Made by a program: the position numbers and the translations under genes. Positions 18,780 to 25,950 of a stretch of DNA of 54,960 nucleotides are shown here, in pieces; the stretch's first letter is position 1; every line of letters starts with the position of its first letter. The stretch covers positions 1 to 54,960 of the forward strand of contig JAIYDW010000055.1 of the NCBI GenBank assembly GCA_027487315.1. Direction: 5' to 3'. The notes below the pieces were generated by a model. That model had not been told where the DNA came from, made no database searches, and saw nothing but the letters and a program-made list of their open reading frames with translations. The DNA is from Verrucomicrobiaceae bacterium (lineage in GTDB: Bacteria; Verrucomicrobiota; Verrucomicrobiia; Verrucomicrobiales; Verrucomicrobiaceae).

Positions 18780-19196
18780 CTACCCCGCCCCTTCTACCTC
18801 ACCCGCCCGTCGCTTGAGGGTGACCCGGTGCACACCCTTGCGCAAGGTGGTCACATCAAAATTCACCATCATCCCTTCCCGATACCCGCCGAGCCGCAGC
18901 AAAGTCTCCAAACCAGCCAAGTCCACCGACTTAATCTCCTCTCGCGCTACGACTTGCACAAGCAAGACCCCTTCGACCAGTAAATCCAGTCTCGCAGCGT
19001 TCTCCACCTGCTTCCCTCGATACTGAAACCGCAATTTTTCCCCTCGGACAAAAGGCACCTCCATCTCCCGAAGTTCGATGCAAAGACATTCCTCATACGC
19101 TTCGCGGGTCAACCCAGGTCCCAAATGCTTATGCACCTCAAGAGCGGCTGCTAGCACACGATGCGGGAGATCTGGGTCCATGACCGAAACATTCAT
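18780..19196 (-). CDS. GxxExxY family protein with altered nuclease motif
   Basis: A 138-residue member of the GxxExxY family: HKHLGPGLTREAYEECL carries the naming motif, followed by the strand LDLLVEGVLLVQVVAREE. Family members normally have a PD-(D/E)XK-like D...E-x-K at that strand. Here the Glu and Lys positions read Gln and Val, so catalysis by the usual route is doubtful. Function of the family is unknown. The start at 19196 (MNVSVMDPDL) is used; the ATG at 19181 is also possible. Confidence 0.75.
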   Translation of the reverse strand: MNVSVMDPDLPHRVLAAALEVHKHLGPGLTREAYEECLCIELREMEVPFVRGEKLRFQYRGKQVENAARLDLLVEGVLLVQVVAREEIKSVDLAGLETLLRLGGYREGMMVNFDVTTLRKGVHRVTLKRRAGEVEGAG

Positions 19197-19524
19197 GATG
19201 AGCAAATTGACTGGTGAACGCTAGCCTCGGAATCCAAACAGGCAACTCACAGCCGCCATCCCAGAAAAATCGGCCCAAATCCTGCTCATAAGAAAACCCA
19301 TGACTCCAACCCATACCCCGCTTCACCCGCCGATACACCCAATCTAAACCTCATCACCGAGCAAGGAATCCAGTCGCATTTCGCTAGAAATGCACTATCC
19401 TTCCCCAGGTCGATTAAGCCCAGTTCGCCACCCTCAATACTGATTCGGTATTAATTTACAGAGTTTACTCCAATAGCCATAATTTAAGTTGCATTTATAG
19501 TTAACTGAGACTAAATTTGTTCTT
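19197..19524. other. 328-bp intergenic region, AT-rich on the right
   Basis: No coding sequence, tRNA or clear repeat was seen between the divergent GxxExxY and L,D-transpeptidase genes. The last 90 bases (about 19435-19524) are much richer in A and T than anything nearby and probably hold the transpeptidase promoter. One weak candidate is TTGCAT at 19489-19494 with TAAATT at 19512-19517, 17 bases apart, which would suit the inner start codon at 19573 better than the one at 19525. Confidence 0.4.
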
Positions 19525-20191: not shown

Positions 20192-21655
20192 TCAAAGTAG
20201 AGGAATAAACAACCTCGCCACCCCATTGCGCAGCCGTTCGCCAAACGTCATTCCCTCCAGCATCGCAAGCGTCACCTCGACGCTCTGATCCCGCTTCACT
20301 TCAACCTCCTGAGTCAGCCTCGCCCCCAGCTCCGAATCGTAGCAAACAATGTTGAACTCAAAGTTCAGCCGCAAACTTCTGGGATCCCAATTGGTGCTCC
20401 CCACAAAACTCCACACCTCATCCACCACAAAGATCTTCGAATGATCAAACGGAGCTGGTGATTCAAAAATCCGGCACCCTCGCTCCATCAACTCCGGATA
20501 CAACGTCCGTGCCGCCCAGGAGACCAGCGCGATGTTGTTCTTCGCCGGTGTGATGATCGTCACTTCAACACCTCTTAAAGCACAGAGATTCAATGCGCCC
20601 ATCAACGTTGGTGAGGGCAGAAAATAAGGAGTCAAGATTCGTACCGAACGCCTCGCCGCATTCAGGGTTGCAAACAACGCTGTCGGCATCACCTCCAAAT
20701 CCGCATCCGGACCGTCCGGCAACCCCAGCGCACTGGTTCCCCCTACCGCCTCCAGTTGCGGGTAAAACACCTCTCCTTCCAACACTTCCCCGCAGCAGAA
20801 TTCCCAGTCTTCCGCAAAGACATGCTGCAATTGCTCCACCACCGGACCCCGAACCTCAAAATGCAAATCCTGCACCGGATGCCCCGGCTTCCGCGACAGC
20901 ATGTTACCTTCTCGAATATTCATTCCTCCAGTGAACCCGACCCGGCCGTCAACCACTATCACCTTACGGTGGTTCCTCAAATTCAGCGTCAACAACCTCT
21001 TGATGAATCGGTTCGGCATGAATCGCCTCACCGGCACCCCCAACCGCCTCAACTCCCGCGTCACCGGCGGCCACCCATACCGCGTTCCCGCATCATCGAC
21101 CATGACCCGCACTGCCACCCCACGCTTCACGGCCCTATCCAATGCCATCACAAACTCCCCACCAATCCCGGTCGCCTCAAAAATGTAACTCGCCAACGTC
21201 ACTGACACCTTCGCACCCTCAATCGCTCCAATCATCGCCGGCAACGCCTCATCCCCATTGTGCAAAACCCGCACCACATTCCCCACCGTGAAATGAAACC
21301 GCGAGATCCGATCCAAAGTCTGCGCTAGGTGGCAGTCACCTTCCCTCATTGACGGATCCAAATCCGCCGGAAGCGGACAAAACAGTCCCGGTTCCGTCAT
21401 GGCCACTCCAGGCAGAGCCTGCCTCAATTTCCGCCCTTGCCTTCGAATCAAATTGATCCCGAACAACAAGTAAAACACCGACCCCAGAAGCGGCACAAAC
21501 GTCACAATGACCAGCCAATAAGCAGCGGATCGTGCATCACGCTTTTTCAACAACACATGCACTCCGGTCGACACCGCCGCCGTCAAAGAAATCAGAGCCA
21601 GCACCACCGCCCAGACCCCAGGATTCTCAATTGCGCCCTCTAAATCTTCAAACAC
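20192..21655 (-). CDS. cls: cardiolipin synthase, phospholipase D family
   Basis: A 487-residue membrane enzyme joining phosphatidylglycerol units into cardiolipin. Two N-terminal helices (about residues 14-70) are followed by two HKD motifs: NHRKVIVVDGRVGFTGG and DHSKIFVVDEVWSFVGS, both complete with H-x-K-x4-D. The length fits ClsA. The start codon is GTG at 21655. It lies 57 bases downstream of the B12-dependent regulator in the same direction, so the two may be cotranscribed, which would tie lipid composition to light or cobalamin state. That link is inference. Confidence 0.9.
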   Translation of the reverse strand: MFEDLEGAIENPGVWAVVLALISLTAAVSTGVHVLLKKRDARSAAYWLVIVTFVPLLGSVFYLLFGINLIRRQGRKLRQALPGVAMTEPGLFCPLPADLDPSMREGDCHLAQTLDRISRFHFTVGNVVRVLHNGDEALPAMIGAIEGAKVSVTLASYIFEATGIGGEFVMALDRAVKRGVAVRVMVDDAGTRYGWPPVTRELRRLGVPVRRFMPNRFIKRLLTLNLRNHRKVIVVDGRVGFTGGMNIREGNMLSRKPGHPVQDLHFEVRGPVVEQLQHVFAEDWEFCCGEVLEGEVFYPQLEAVGGTSALGLPDGPDADLEVMPTALFATLNAARRSVRILTPYFLPSPTLMGALNLCALRGVEVTIITPAKNNIALVSWAARTLYPELMERGCRIFESPAPFDHSKIFVVDEVWSFVGSTNWDPRSLRLNFEFNIVCYDSELGARLTQEVEVKRDQSVEVTLAMLEGMTFGERLRNGVARLFIPLL

Positions 21656-21712
21656 CTCTCAAACTAACATCTTCCATCCTCATCGCCACAGAAACGATCA
21701 AACAGGGCAACC

Positions 21713-22636
21713 CTACGCCGTCCCCAACATGCGATCCAAACTCGGCAGATCCTTCAGCCACTCAATCTTAACGTCTCGACCACCAATGGCCGCCTCATAC
21801 CCGCTCGCAGCACGTCCTCCCACAACCAAGAGAATCTCATCAGGCAGCAACTTCCTCAACTCACGAATCTGCGCGAGCACAGTCGGACAGTTCTCAGGAT
21901 ACACCACACTCAACCCAACAGCCCTCGCCTTGCGCGCCCGCGCGCACGCCGCAATTTCCTCCGCCGGCAAATTCGGTCCCAAATAAGTCACTCGCCACCC
22001 CAAATCTCGCGCTGATGCCGCCACCAGCAAGGCTCCCAGCTCATGAATTTCCCCGCTCGGCGTCGCCACAACCAGTTCTGGCGCATTCGTCGCCGTTTGG
22101 CTCCCCGGCACCGGTGACATCAGCACCTCCCGAATCACCGCCGTCCCCAGATGCTCCTGACCCGACCGCAAATGCCCATCCTGCCAAGCCACTCCAATCT
22201 GACCAATCAACGGCGTAATCACCTGACGCAGCATCCCCCTCTGCCCAAACTGCAACCTGGCTCTTTGCAGCAGCCGCCGCAGCCGATCGCCCTCAAACGC
22301 CCTCGCCGCCGCCAAACACGCTCCCACATAGTCCTCCGTCGTCGTCAGTTCAGGACTCGCATCAACCGCAAAACTCCGATCCCCTTTCGGCCGCTCCTCA
22401 TGCAACAACCGCTCCAATGCCTCCATTTCCAACTCCGCCAAACAGCCAATCCGATGCCCCTTCGTCGTCAATTCCCCGAGCAGCCTCAATCGGCGCACAT
22501 CCTCCTCCGAATACATTCTCCGATTCGTCCCCGTCCGCGTCGGCGCCAGCGCTTGATAACGACGCTCCCAAATCCGGATCACATGCGCTGTCACGCCGCT
22601 CCTCTGACTGGCAATTTGAATGGGGACCATCAACAT
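21713..22636 (-). CDS. MerR-type regulator with cobalamin-binding light-sensor domain (CarH-like)
   Basis: A 307-residue protein. An N-terminal MerR winged helix (residues 4-72, VIRIWERRYQALAPTRT with RRMYSEEDV) is followed by the four-helix methionine-synthase-type cap and a B12-binding domain. The cap has W151-x9-E161-H162, the Wx9EH motif of CarH/LitR photoreceptors, and the B12 domain has E196-x-H198-x2-G201 (ExHxxG), with His198 as expected lower ligand. Family knowledge: adenosylcobalamin holds the tetramer on DNA in the dark and light releases it. The residue after Trp151 is Gln152, where I recall a His in Thermus CarH. Divergent from the SpmAB gene, upstream of cls. Confidence 0.88.
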   Translation of the reverse strand: MLMVPIQIASQRSGVTAHVIRIWERRYQALAPTRTGTNRRMYSEEDVRRLRLLGELTTKGHRIGCLAELEMEALERLLHEERPKGDRSFAVDASPELTTTEDYVGACLAAARAFEGDRLRRLLQRARLQFGQRGMLRQVITPLIGQIGVAWQDGHLRSGQEHLGTAVIREVLMSPVPGSQTATNAPELVVATPSGEIHELGALLVAASARDLGWRVTYLGPNLPAEEIAACARARKARAVGLSVVYPENCPTVLAQIRELRKLLPDEILLVVGGRAASGYEAAIGGRDVKIEWLKDLPSLDRMLGTA

Positions 22637-22716
22637 GAAAAAAAGTACGACTGATAAATACGCAAACTAGCACCGGACGGTTGCCCCAACATCCTCCTTC
22701 CTTTCTAGCTATCCTG

Positions 22717-22745
22717 TTGACGCAGCCTGCACCCCCCTTTATCTC
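22717..22745 (+). promoter_or_regulatory. candidate promoter for spmAB fusion
   Basis: TTGACG at 22717-22722 and TATCTC at 22740-22745 are 17 bases apart, a fair sigma-70 layout. Transcription would start close to the ATG at 22752, giving a leaderless or nearly leaderless message. The site lies in the 115-bp gap shared with the CarH-like gene and could be under its control. Weak evidence. Confidence 0.3.
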
Positions 22746-22751
22746 CCGCCC

Positions 22752-24194
22752 ATGCTGAACTACATCTGGGCCGCTATCGTCCTCGGCGGAATCCTCATCG
22801 CCGGCCTCCTCGGCAACCTCTCCGGTGAAAACGGAGTCATCCCCGCCGCCCTCGACATGGCCAAAACCGCCGTCATGGGCATCGCGCTACCCCTCTCTGG
22901 CATGATGATGTTCTGGCTCGGCACCATGCGCCTGATGGAAAAGGCCGGGCTCCTCGCCGCCGTCTCCCATCTCCTCCACCCCCTCATGCGCCGCCTTTTC
23001 CCGGAGGTTCCCGCCGGCCACCCCGCCCTCAGCGCCATGATCATGAACTTTGCCGCCAACATGCTCGGCCTCGGAAACAGCGCCACCCCGCTCGGGCTTA
23101 AAGCCATGGACCACCTGCAGCAGCTGAATCCGCACAAACAGACCGCCAGCAACGCCATGGTCACCTTCCTGGCCCTCAATACCGCCGCCTTCACCCTGGT
23201 CCCCATGACCGCCATCAACTACCTCGCCGCCGCCGGCATCAAAAACGCCTACGAAGTCATCTTCCCCACCATCCTCGCCACCGCCTGCACCACCGTCACC
23301 GCCATCGTCATGGCCAAGTCCCTCCAGCGCCTCTCCCGCTTCCGCGTCGAACCCGACACCGTCGATCCATCCGAATCGTCCTCGTCCAATCCGCAATCCG
23401 AAATCCCCAATCCGAAATCCCCATCCACCCGCTTCTCCCCGCGCGGCAAACTCTTCCTCACCCTGCTCCTCGCCGCCTTCGCCGGTGTCGCCGTGCTCGA
23501 ACTCGCCGCCCCCACCCTGCGCCAATCCGTCCTCGAAAAAACCGGTATCGCCAATGTCGTCAAAGCCGCCGAACAACGCAGCGCCGACGCCAAAGCCCAA
23601 GCCGCCGCAGCGAAACCCGTCGCCACCGAGACCACCGCCACCGTGACCCCCACCGGCTTCCGCGCCAGCCTCAACTCAGCCTCCGCTCTCGCCATCCCCT
23701 TCCTCCTCGTCCTCACCCTCGGCGTCGCCCTCGCCCGCCGCGTCAAAGTCTACGAGGAGTTCGTCGACGGTGCCAAAGAAGGCTTCGCTGTCGCCACCCG
23801 CATCATGCCCTTCCTCGTCGCCATGTTCGCCGCCCTTGCCATCTTCCGCTACTCCGGCGCCCTTCTCCTTCTGGAATACATGCTCGCCCCCCTCCTCGGA
23901 GCCGTCGGTTTCCCCGTCGACCTCCTCCCCATGGCCCTCATGCGCCCACTCAGCGGCTCCGGCTCCCTAGGTGTCCTCACCGAAATCCTCGCCCGCCCGG
24001 ATGCCTCCGAATTCCTCAAAATGACCGCTGCCATCATGTTCGGCTCCACTGAGACCACCTTCTATGTCCTCGCCGTTTACTTCGGCTCCGTTGGCGTCAA
24101 AAAAATCCGCCATGCCCTCATCGCAGGCCTCACCGCCGACTTCGTCGGCCTCACCATGTCCGTCGTCATTGGCCGCCTCATGTTCCCTTCCTGA
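22752..24194 (+). CDS. fused spore maturation proteins A and B (SpmAB), nucleoside recognition domains
   Basis: A 480-residue membrane protein. Residues 1-200 match SpmA (MNFAANMLGLGNSATPLGLKA) and residues about 240-480 match SpmB (PFLVAMFAALAIFRYSGA, LMRPLSGSGSLG, FGSTETTFYVLAVYFG), both of the Gate/nucleoside-recognition fold. Its role in non-sporulating bacteria is unknown; transport is likely. The linker (about residues 200-240) contains a heptad DNA repeat translated as SNPQSEIPNPKS, then an Ala-rich segment after a membrane helix. It is divergent from the CarH-like regulator. Confidence 0.87.
   Translation: MLNYIWAAIVLGGILIAGLLGNLSGENGVIPAALDMAKTAVMGIALPLSGMMMFWLGTMRLMEKAGLLAAVSHLLHPLMRRLFPEVPAGHPALSAMIMNFAANMLGLGNSATPLGLKAMDHLQQLNPHKQTASNAMVTFLALNTAAFTLVPMTAINYLAAAGIKNAYEVIFPTILATACTTVTAIVMAKSLQRLSRFRVEPDTVDPSESSSSNPQSEIPNPKSPSTRFSPRGKLFLTLLLAAFAGVAVLELAAPTLRQSVLEKTGIANVVKAAEQRSADAKAQAAAAKPVATETTATVTPTGFRASLNSASALAIPFLLVLTLGVALARRVKVYEEFVDGAKEGFAVATRIMPFLVAMFAALAIFRYSGALLLLEYMLAPLLGAVGFPVDLLPMALMRPLSGSGSLGVLTEILARPDASEFLKMTAAIMFGSTETTFYVLAVYFGSVGVKKIRHALIAGLTADFVGLTMSVVIGRLMFPS
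23388..23422 (+). repeat. five AATCCGC-type heptads inside spmAB
   Basis: Five tandem 7-base units: AATCCGC, AATCCGA, AATCCCC, AATCCGA, AATCCCC. The unit is not a multiple of three, so successive units are read in different frames. The array is 35 bases long and lies in the linker between the SpmA and SpmB halves, where it does not interrupt the frame. The same heptads fill the creB-creC gap and lie after 47028. Confidence 0.8.
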
Positions 24195-25641: not shown

Positions 25642-25950
25642 ATGGACGTTATCTGGACAACGGGAGCCACGCATGAATTTCAGCAAGCATTCGAATATCT
25701 ACTTCTGAAAGACGAGTCGTCTGCTGCAGCATTGATAAACGAGGTTACCTCCGGAATCGACCTCATTCAGCGCCATCCGAATCTTGGCTCGTTCTTTGAA
25801 AAGCCTGTTCGAAAATGGCTTGTTGGTGGGCGCTATGGCCTAATTTATCGAGTGGAGAATCGGGGCATCATTATCCTCGCCTTCGCCAACATGATCGGTG
25901 ACCTGCGTCCGCTTCACGATCGCCTTCGTCATCTATTTGACACCCCATGA
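25642..25950 (+). CDS. type II toxin, RelE/ParE superfamily
   Basis: A 102-residue RelE/ParE-fold protein: helical hairpin [17 protein letters not shown], then the beta sheet with [24 protein letters not shown] and the C-terminal LHDRLRHLF. The GRYGLIYRV strand is typical of ParE/HigB-like toxins. The target (gyrase or mRNA) cannot be told. Its stop codon overlaps the uvrB start as ATGA (25947-25950), so uvrB translation may be coupled to that of the toxin. Confidence 0.82.

Follow-up and report, generated by a model that had tools for sequence, protein, structure and literature searches.

A predicted CarH-type B12 photoreceptor gene divergently paired with an SpmAB-like membrane protein gene across Verrucomicrobiaceae

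CarH is the textbook B12-dependent photoreceptor, and the known targets of its class (class I) are almost all carotenoid genes. The closest described system is the CarH/LitR of Thermus thermophilus, a class I LitR (PDB 5c8d and 5c8e) built from a MerR helix-turn-helix (HTH), a four-helix bundle and a Rossmann cobalamin domain. In Thermus CarH the residue following the key tryptophan is His132, a ligand of the light state; in the H132A variant the light state is hydroxo-Co(III), at 352 nm rather than 359 nm, and the protein remains mostly tetrameric (excerpts of PMC10442372). Natural variants at this position are already published, with Gln in SasPcob and Arg in CtMerR (WP_157850694; PDB 8jbs and 8jbt). 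CtMerR, despite its Arg, passes from tetramer to monomer in the light, and its DNA-binding domain is diverged, with 25% identity to that of Thermus CarH (excerpts of PMC11796333). The histidine, and the bis-His light state with it, varies among photoreceptors and is therefore not a defining criterion. Pseudomonas class II LitR (PplR/PmlR) is without the full B12 module and works with a LOV partner; its light regulons extend to non-carotenoid genes, among them those for photolyase and a furan fatty acid synthase (PMC9758184, in part). In Streptomyces, a CarH-type photoreceptor, LitR, is wired to the sigma factor LitS by promoting litS transcription (PMC12705666, in part), and LitS is an ECF sigma factor by the title of a reference cited in that source.

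The window analysed here, a stretch of 54,960 nucleotides, is one contig of a Verrucomicrobiaceae genome of 5.87 Mb (256 contigs, 98.67% complete; G000, contig C128). It contains a MerR/cobalamin regulator gene, hereafter carH, whose features and neighbours are collected in Table 1. Two further genes of the window were seen in passing: a ParE-type toxin gene (25642-25950, plus strand; PF05016, E 2.6e-7) directly upstream of uvrB, and a gene for a GxxExxY / PDDEXK_3 nuclease-superfamily protein (18780-19205, minus strand).

Table 1. Features of the carH locus, in window coordinates.
Feature	Position	Strand	Basis or remark
CarH-type (class I LitR-like) MerR/cobalamin regulator, 307 aa	21713..22636	-	ORF, Pfam, phmmer, motifs, AlphaFold2/Foldseek
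MerR HTH, residues 9-63, RIWERRY recognition motif	22448..22612	-	Pfam PF13411 and motif
B12-binding_2 four-helix bundle with W151-Q152...E161-H162	22121..22315	-	PF02607 and motif
B12-binding Rossmann domain; lower-ligand His198 (GEIHELG), LGPNLP (GxxxP)	21788..22075	-	PF02310 and motif
Cardiolipin synthase-like gene	20192..21655	-	57 bp downstream of carH; TIGR04265
Divergent carH/spmAB intergenic region, 115 bp	22637..22751		Presumed place of regulation
Two-box promoter-like element of carH: GCAACC (22684-22679), 16 bases, CGTAT (22662-22658)	22658..22684	-	ECF-type by resemblance
480-aa SpmAB-like membrane protein with two Gate domains	22752..24194	+, divergent	Pfam (Gate/nucleoside-recognition), neighbourhood survey

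All sequence and fold criteria that could be tested support the regulator as a CarH-type B12 photoreceptor, for which a response to light is predicted. Its Pfam matches are MerR_1 (E 2.7e-15), B12-binding (E 1.8e-17) and B12-binding_2 (E 3.1e-4), the last borderline, falling just below the curated cut-off in one search and just above it in another. The RxWERRY motif of CarH and class I LitR is found in the N-terminal HTH. The first-pass annotation had read both CarH motifs, Wx9EH and ExHxxG, in this protein, and both are there. The former, which separates CarH from CarA, is intact as GVAW-QDGHLRSGQ-EH (W151, Q152, E161, H162; residues counted from the ATG at 22636, positions checked on the DNA). 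The latter begins a complete long B12 motif (EIHELG with H198, x41, SVV, x27, GG) of the published form D/ExHx2G/Px41SxT/Vx22-27GG (excerpts of PMC9304148). Additionally, all four elements of the published light-response signature of photoreceptors, GxxW, EH, GxxH and GxxxP (excerpts of PMC11796333), are present as GVAW, EH, GEIH and GPNLP.

Thermus CarH is also the best PDB sequence match to the regulator (phmmer, E 4.9e-23 and 5.8e-23). CarH ranks first among NCBIfam models (NF052513 TransRegCarH, 107.5 bits, E 6.9e-31), far under the curated equivalog cut-off of 400 bits, so that the protein is related to that model and not filed there. The AlphaFold2 model has a mean pLDDT of 90, and its top Foldseek matches are Thermus CarH 5c8e and 5c8d (E 6.5e-18), with an rmsd of mostly about 2.7-4 A for the cobalamin-domain chains. 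A genome_contigs scan with this single protein as the query, which gave 7 loci only, included two nearly identical proteins (98% and 95%) from records labelled Verrucomicrobiaceae and one at 59% labelled Prosthecobacter. Orthologues at 37-60% identity retain the motifs.

Compared with Thermus CarH, the regulator shares the three-domain build, Wx9EH, the lower-ligand His and the GxxW/EH/GxxH/GxxxP set at about 28-29% identity, and differs in carrying Gln instead of His132 and Asn (LGPN) instead of Asp (LGPD). This Asp of Thermus CarH we take to be the dimer salt-bridge Asp201, the number being counted from the alignment with the regulator. Unlike the Thermus system, this locus has an SpmAB partner, with no TnnACA repeats found upstream of carH and no CrtI gene above cut-off in the genome. 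CtMerR is alike in being a MerR-type cobalamin photoreceptor with the same signature and no bis-His histidine, and differs in its Arg at that position, in its diverged DNA-binding domain and in that the partner gene of the regulator is known here purely from genomics. Class II LitR belongs to the same LitR family but has no full B12 module, whereas the regulator has both B12 domains.

The neighbours of carH were followed through a sample of 57 genomes, the window's own included. A carH match (E <= 1e-10) was found in 40 of them and in 31 of the 36 belonging to the same family; in a phylum-wide draw the family profile matched 10 of 288 genomes at E <= 1e-40. Among the 31 carH-positive family genomes, 27 have a divergent SpmAB neighbour (26 from neighbourhood reading and one, G016, from coordinates), and in four (G002, G008, G011, G018) SpmAB is not adjacent. 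The pairing spans CarH identities down to 46-49%. In the CarH tree, SpmAB-linked copies occur in both large family groups, with 4 changes over 26 rows vs 9.7 with shuffled labels. Outside the family, SpmAB was not found in the fetched stretch beside carH at any of 7 order-level loci or of 4 class- and phylum-level loci (one of these partial, at a contig end). SpmAB itself is present in 45 of the 57 genomes, commonly without carH, and is therefore not dependent on it.

The first-pass annotation had proposed control of lipid and membrane genes, naming cardiolipin synthase on the same strand and SpmAB on the divergent one. Both neighbours are as described, by TIGR04265 (288.1 bits, cut-off 290) and by two Gate domains. 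Of that proposal, a membrane-protein gene is supported as the stable partner, its control by the regulator being presumed; the lipid half is not supported, as cardiolipin synthase follows carH at only 3 nearly identical loci of one genus among the 31 carH-positive genomes and is ruled out as a stable partner. Elsewhere, carH is followed by FAA hydrolase and aldehyde dehydrogenase genes (L033-L035, L042) or by LMW phosphatase and fructosamine kinase genes (L037, L040), annotation covering one or two loci per cluster and clustering assigning the rest. The flanking genes are thus swapped while the carH-spmAB adjacency is retained. This conserved pair, across Verrucomicrobiaceae genomes that are mostly without carotenoid desaturases, is a stronger finding than the lipid reading. 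A literature search over titles and abstract openings found no link between CarH and SpmAB.

The structure model of SpmAB has a mean pLDDT of only 69 and gave no PDB match under E 0.001. It weakly resembles transporters of the VcINDY and YdaH types, the best match being VcINDY-type (E 0.0055, TM 0.3-0.4). With such low confidence and weak matches, SpmAB can be called at most transporter-like.

The carotenoid genes that are usual for CarH were sought elsewhere in the genome, a check that the first-pass annotation had proposed, and no CrtI-family gene was found above cut-off in G000. Its two SQS_PSY genes are HpnD-like (270.8 bits vs a cut-off of 278.6) and squalene-synthase-like, and carotenoid regulation was accordingly rejected for this genome. 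CrtI-family genes above cut-off occur in 13 of the 57 genomes and in 4 of the 31 carH-positive family genomes (G003, G005, G015, G031), never beside carH. Since full-length CrtI-type genes are missing from G000 and from 27 of the 31, the clade is mostly uncoupled from carotenoids. Separately, an order-level genome (G038) holds, alongside a non-crt paralogue (L047), a second CarH copy (L048 9436-10398, on G038:C92) in divergent orientation to a cluster that includes two CrtI-family genes, which is the classic layout for a link to carotenoids. Genome G003, whose CarH is 99% identical to that of the window, has CrtI and SQS_PSY genes in succession, in that order (L088; G003:C44:8-2181); with none over cut-off in G000, carotenoid genes appear to be accessory within the genus.

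We propose, at about even probability, that the regulator is a class I LitR/CarH-type adenosylcobalamin (AdoCbl) regulator that represses the divergent spmAB in the dark, light ending the repression. Without light, the protein would bind AdoCbl with His198 below the cobalt and Trp151 and Glu161 around the adenosyl group, oligomerise and bind the 115-bp intergenic region, holding down spmAB and perhaps carH too. Light would break the Co-C bond. With Gln152 in place of the bis-His histidine, an aquo- or hydroxo-cobalamin light state is expected, as in CtMerR; this form would let go of the DNA, and the transporter-like membrane protein would be made. The carH gene is probably transcribed from an ECF-type promoter of its own.

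The intergenic region was searched for the DNA site that such a repressor would use. The published CarH operator consists of TnnACA repeats (11 bp), and CarH operators are known to be plastic (excerpts of PMC9304148). A TnnACA repeat operator near the target promoter is usual for CarH, not strictly defining. The look for MerR-type operators at 22637-22751 that the first-pass annotation had proposed found none of this form: a tandem pair of 11-bp TnnACA repeats occurs in 0 of 21 non-redundant upstream regions. A general search for dyads in 18 intergenic regions between carH and spmAB gave nothing beyond the two-box element of Table 1: the only dyads above shuffles, ACG-N20-ACA (11/18) and TAC-N21-ACA (10/18; maximum of 9 in 15 shuffles), correspond to that element on the opposite strand. 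A sigma70 and terminator scan of 21600-22800 returned no sites.

Upstream of carH and on its strand, 15 of 21 non-redundant loci carry the two-box pattern [CG][AT][AT]n(0-1)CC-N15/16-CGTA, vs 0.26 in Markov shuffles, 0.17 expected in an equal amount of DNA of these genomes (from 28 matches in long loci, carH ones included) and 0 on the opposite strand. CGTA alone is found in 21 of 21 loci, vs 6.6 expected. In 26 rows aligned on CGTA, position -22 is G in 22, and positions -18 and -17 are C in 26 and 21, respectively; these figures are somewhat generous, since the choice of rows favoured CGTAs after a first box and the pattern itself had been derived from the sequences in which it was counted. 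The element stays with carH away from spmAB (L017, L029 and, by CAACT, L030) and does not occur at spmAB promoters unlinked to carH; it thus belongs to carH itself. ECF promoters carry AAC in the -35 and CGT in the -10 box (PMC8103513, in part). The CGT box of the element fits fully, whereas an AAC core appears in just 8 of its 26 rows; by resemblance it is a putative ECF-type promoter, an assignment made with moderate confidence.

A sigma factor for this putative promoter was sought in G000. None of 28 sigma-factor matches carries the element convincingly upstream (best score 9.7, vs 12.6-18.0 for carH), so no convincing case of an autoregulated ECF gene sharing it was obtained. A regulon was also rejected: GCAACC-N15/16-CGTAW has 6 sites in G000 vs 5 for a reversed control, and 4 of the 5 non-carH element sites (L054 left out) each lie, by reading, inside a long ORF. 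Five relatives gave 14 sites vs 36 in controls, 5 of them at carH and 8 of the 9 others inside ORFs; the element is not enriched genome-wide in G000 or these relatives. In Streptomyces, LitR promotes litS transcription, whereas the carH of the window has an ECF-like promoter only, with no sigma gene tied to it. At L053 738-2686 (on G000:C72) lies what is, by reading, an ECF sigma-like gene followed by a long gene for a possible anti-sigma factor, inside which the element has a chance match.

The strongest counterpoint to the dark-repressor reading is that the searches brought up no operator shared by the carH/spmAB regions, either because the operators are plastic or because spmAB is not regulated by the protein. 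Also weighing against this reading are the four family genomes in which carH persists with no SpmAB beside it, the 0 of 11 carH loci outside the family with SpmAB in the fetched stretch, the commonness of SpmAB without carH, the linked copy L020 that has lost its B12 ligands, and genome G007 with carH and SpmAB but neither adenosyltransferase type; for the ECF part, the sigma-factor, AAC-core and genome-wide results above count against it. A lack of regulation would make the protein a CarH-type photoreceptor whose adjacency to spmAB is inherited and whose regulated genes lie elsewhere, for example carH itself or photoprotection genes. Its promoter element, kept away from spmAB, and the wide occurrence of spmAB without carH are in line with this. 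Against it, the pair is retained in 27 of 31 family genomes while the other neighbours are replaced, and we regard it as rather unlikely.

A second alternative concerns the signal. The regulator might sense the level of AdoCbl and not light, as a B12-status switch for the transporter-like protein, its photolability being incidental. CarH by its nature binds DNA in an AdoCbl-dependent manner (excerpts of PMC9304148). G000 has one PduO-type adenosyltransferase and none of the BtuR type, a set that would suit such a switch; it has a further gene with a strong B12-binding_2 match, a 1274-aa open frame taken to be MetH, the name being inferred. The adenosyltransferase and the putative MetH gene make a supply of AdoCbl plausible. 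The PduO type occurs in 49 of the 57 genomes; among the 31 carH-positive family genomes 29 have it, the exceptions being G007 and G016. Of these, G007 has carH and SpmAB, yet no adenosyltransferase of either searched family. Both belong to genus g5 (G016:C183:3308-4106; G007:C70, L021/L038), in which neither genome has an enzyme of the two families; the carH of G016 is split over two frames and has in-frame stops, as though it were degenerating, and that of G007 is intact.

The residue after the key Trp also bears on this switch. Counting duplicate loci of one gene once, it is Gln in 19 and Arg in 12 of the 36 loci that have the motif; Glu occurs twice, Lys, Asp and Thr once each, and His never. 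The Gln of the window, which the first-pass annotation had set against the light-state His of Thermus CarH, is confirmed on both counts, by the sequence and by excerpts of PMC10442372, and the substitution is real and lineage-wide; it is not new, given the published Gln and Arg variants (excerpts of PMC11796333). A lineage without the bis-His histidine would fit a B12-status switch. Yet Trp and EH, which would surround the adenosyl group, are retained in 36 of the 37 loci read (30 family, 7 order-level), and CtMerR without that histidine still monomerises in light (same excerpts). In addition, the whole window has no cobalamin riboswitch or other Rfam match, and no B12 gene was found among the annotated neighbours of carH. 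Sensing of B12 status is hence judged improbable. G000 has two photolyase-family genes, which suggests that the organism is exposed to light.

In the one exception to Wx9EH, L020 (1501-2427 of that locus; genome G024), the Trp, the EH histidine and the lower-ligand His (now Gln) are all gone, and the divergent SpmAB gene is nonetheless retained. This CarH represents a natural B12-blind copy and in principle resembles M. xanthus CarA. It is very improbable that the regulator of the window is B12-independent in this CarA-like way, under other control and with the cobalamin fold as a mere scaffold, for although L020 and the precedent of CarA (excerpts of PMC9304148) speak for it, the joint loss of three positions there and their joint retention elsewhere imply that the other copies are under selection to bind cobalamin.

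Taken in full, the dark-repressor reading describes a carotenoid-independent, family-wide branch of B12 photoreceptors in which a photocycle without the bis-His state would light-switch a Gate-family (SpmAB) transporter, with carH under an ECF sigma factor; this fuller version is offered tentatively, at somewhat less than even probability. If true, it would be, to our knowledge, the first case of a CarH light signal controlling membrane transport. The natural Gln and Arg variants, with the one ligand-less copy, form a set for testing the light state without the second histidine. In Verrucomicrobiaceae, a photoreceptor that is kept while the carotenoid desaturase is mostly absent, with a membrane-protein gene kept beside it, provides a handle on other uses of green-light sensing.
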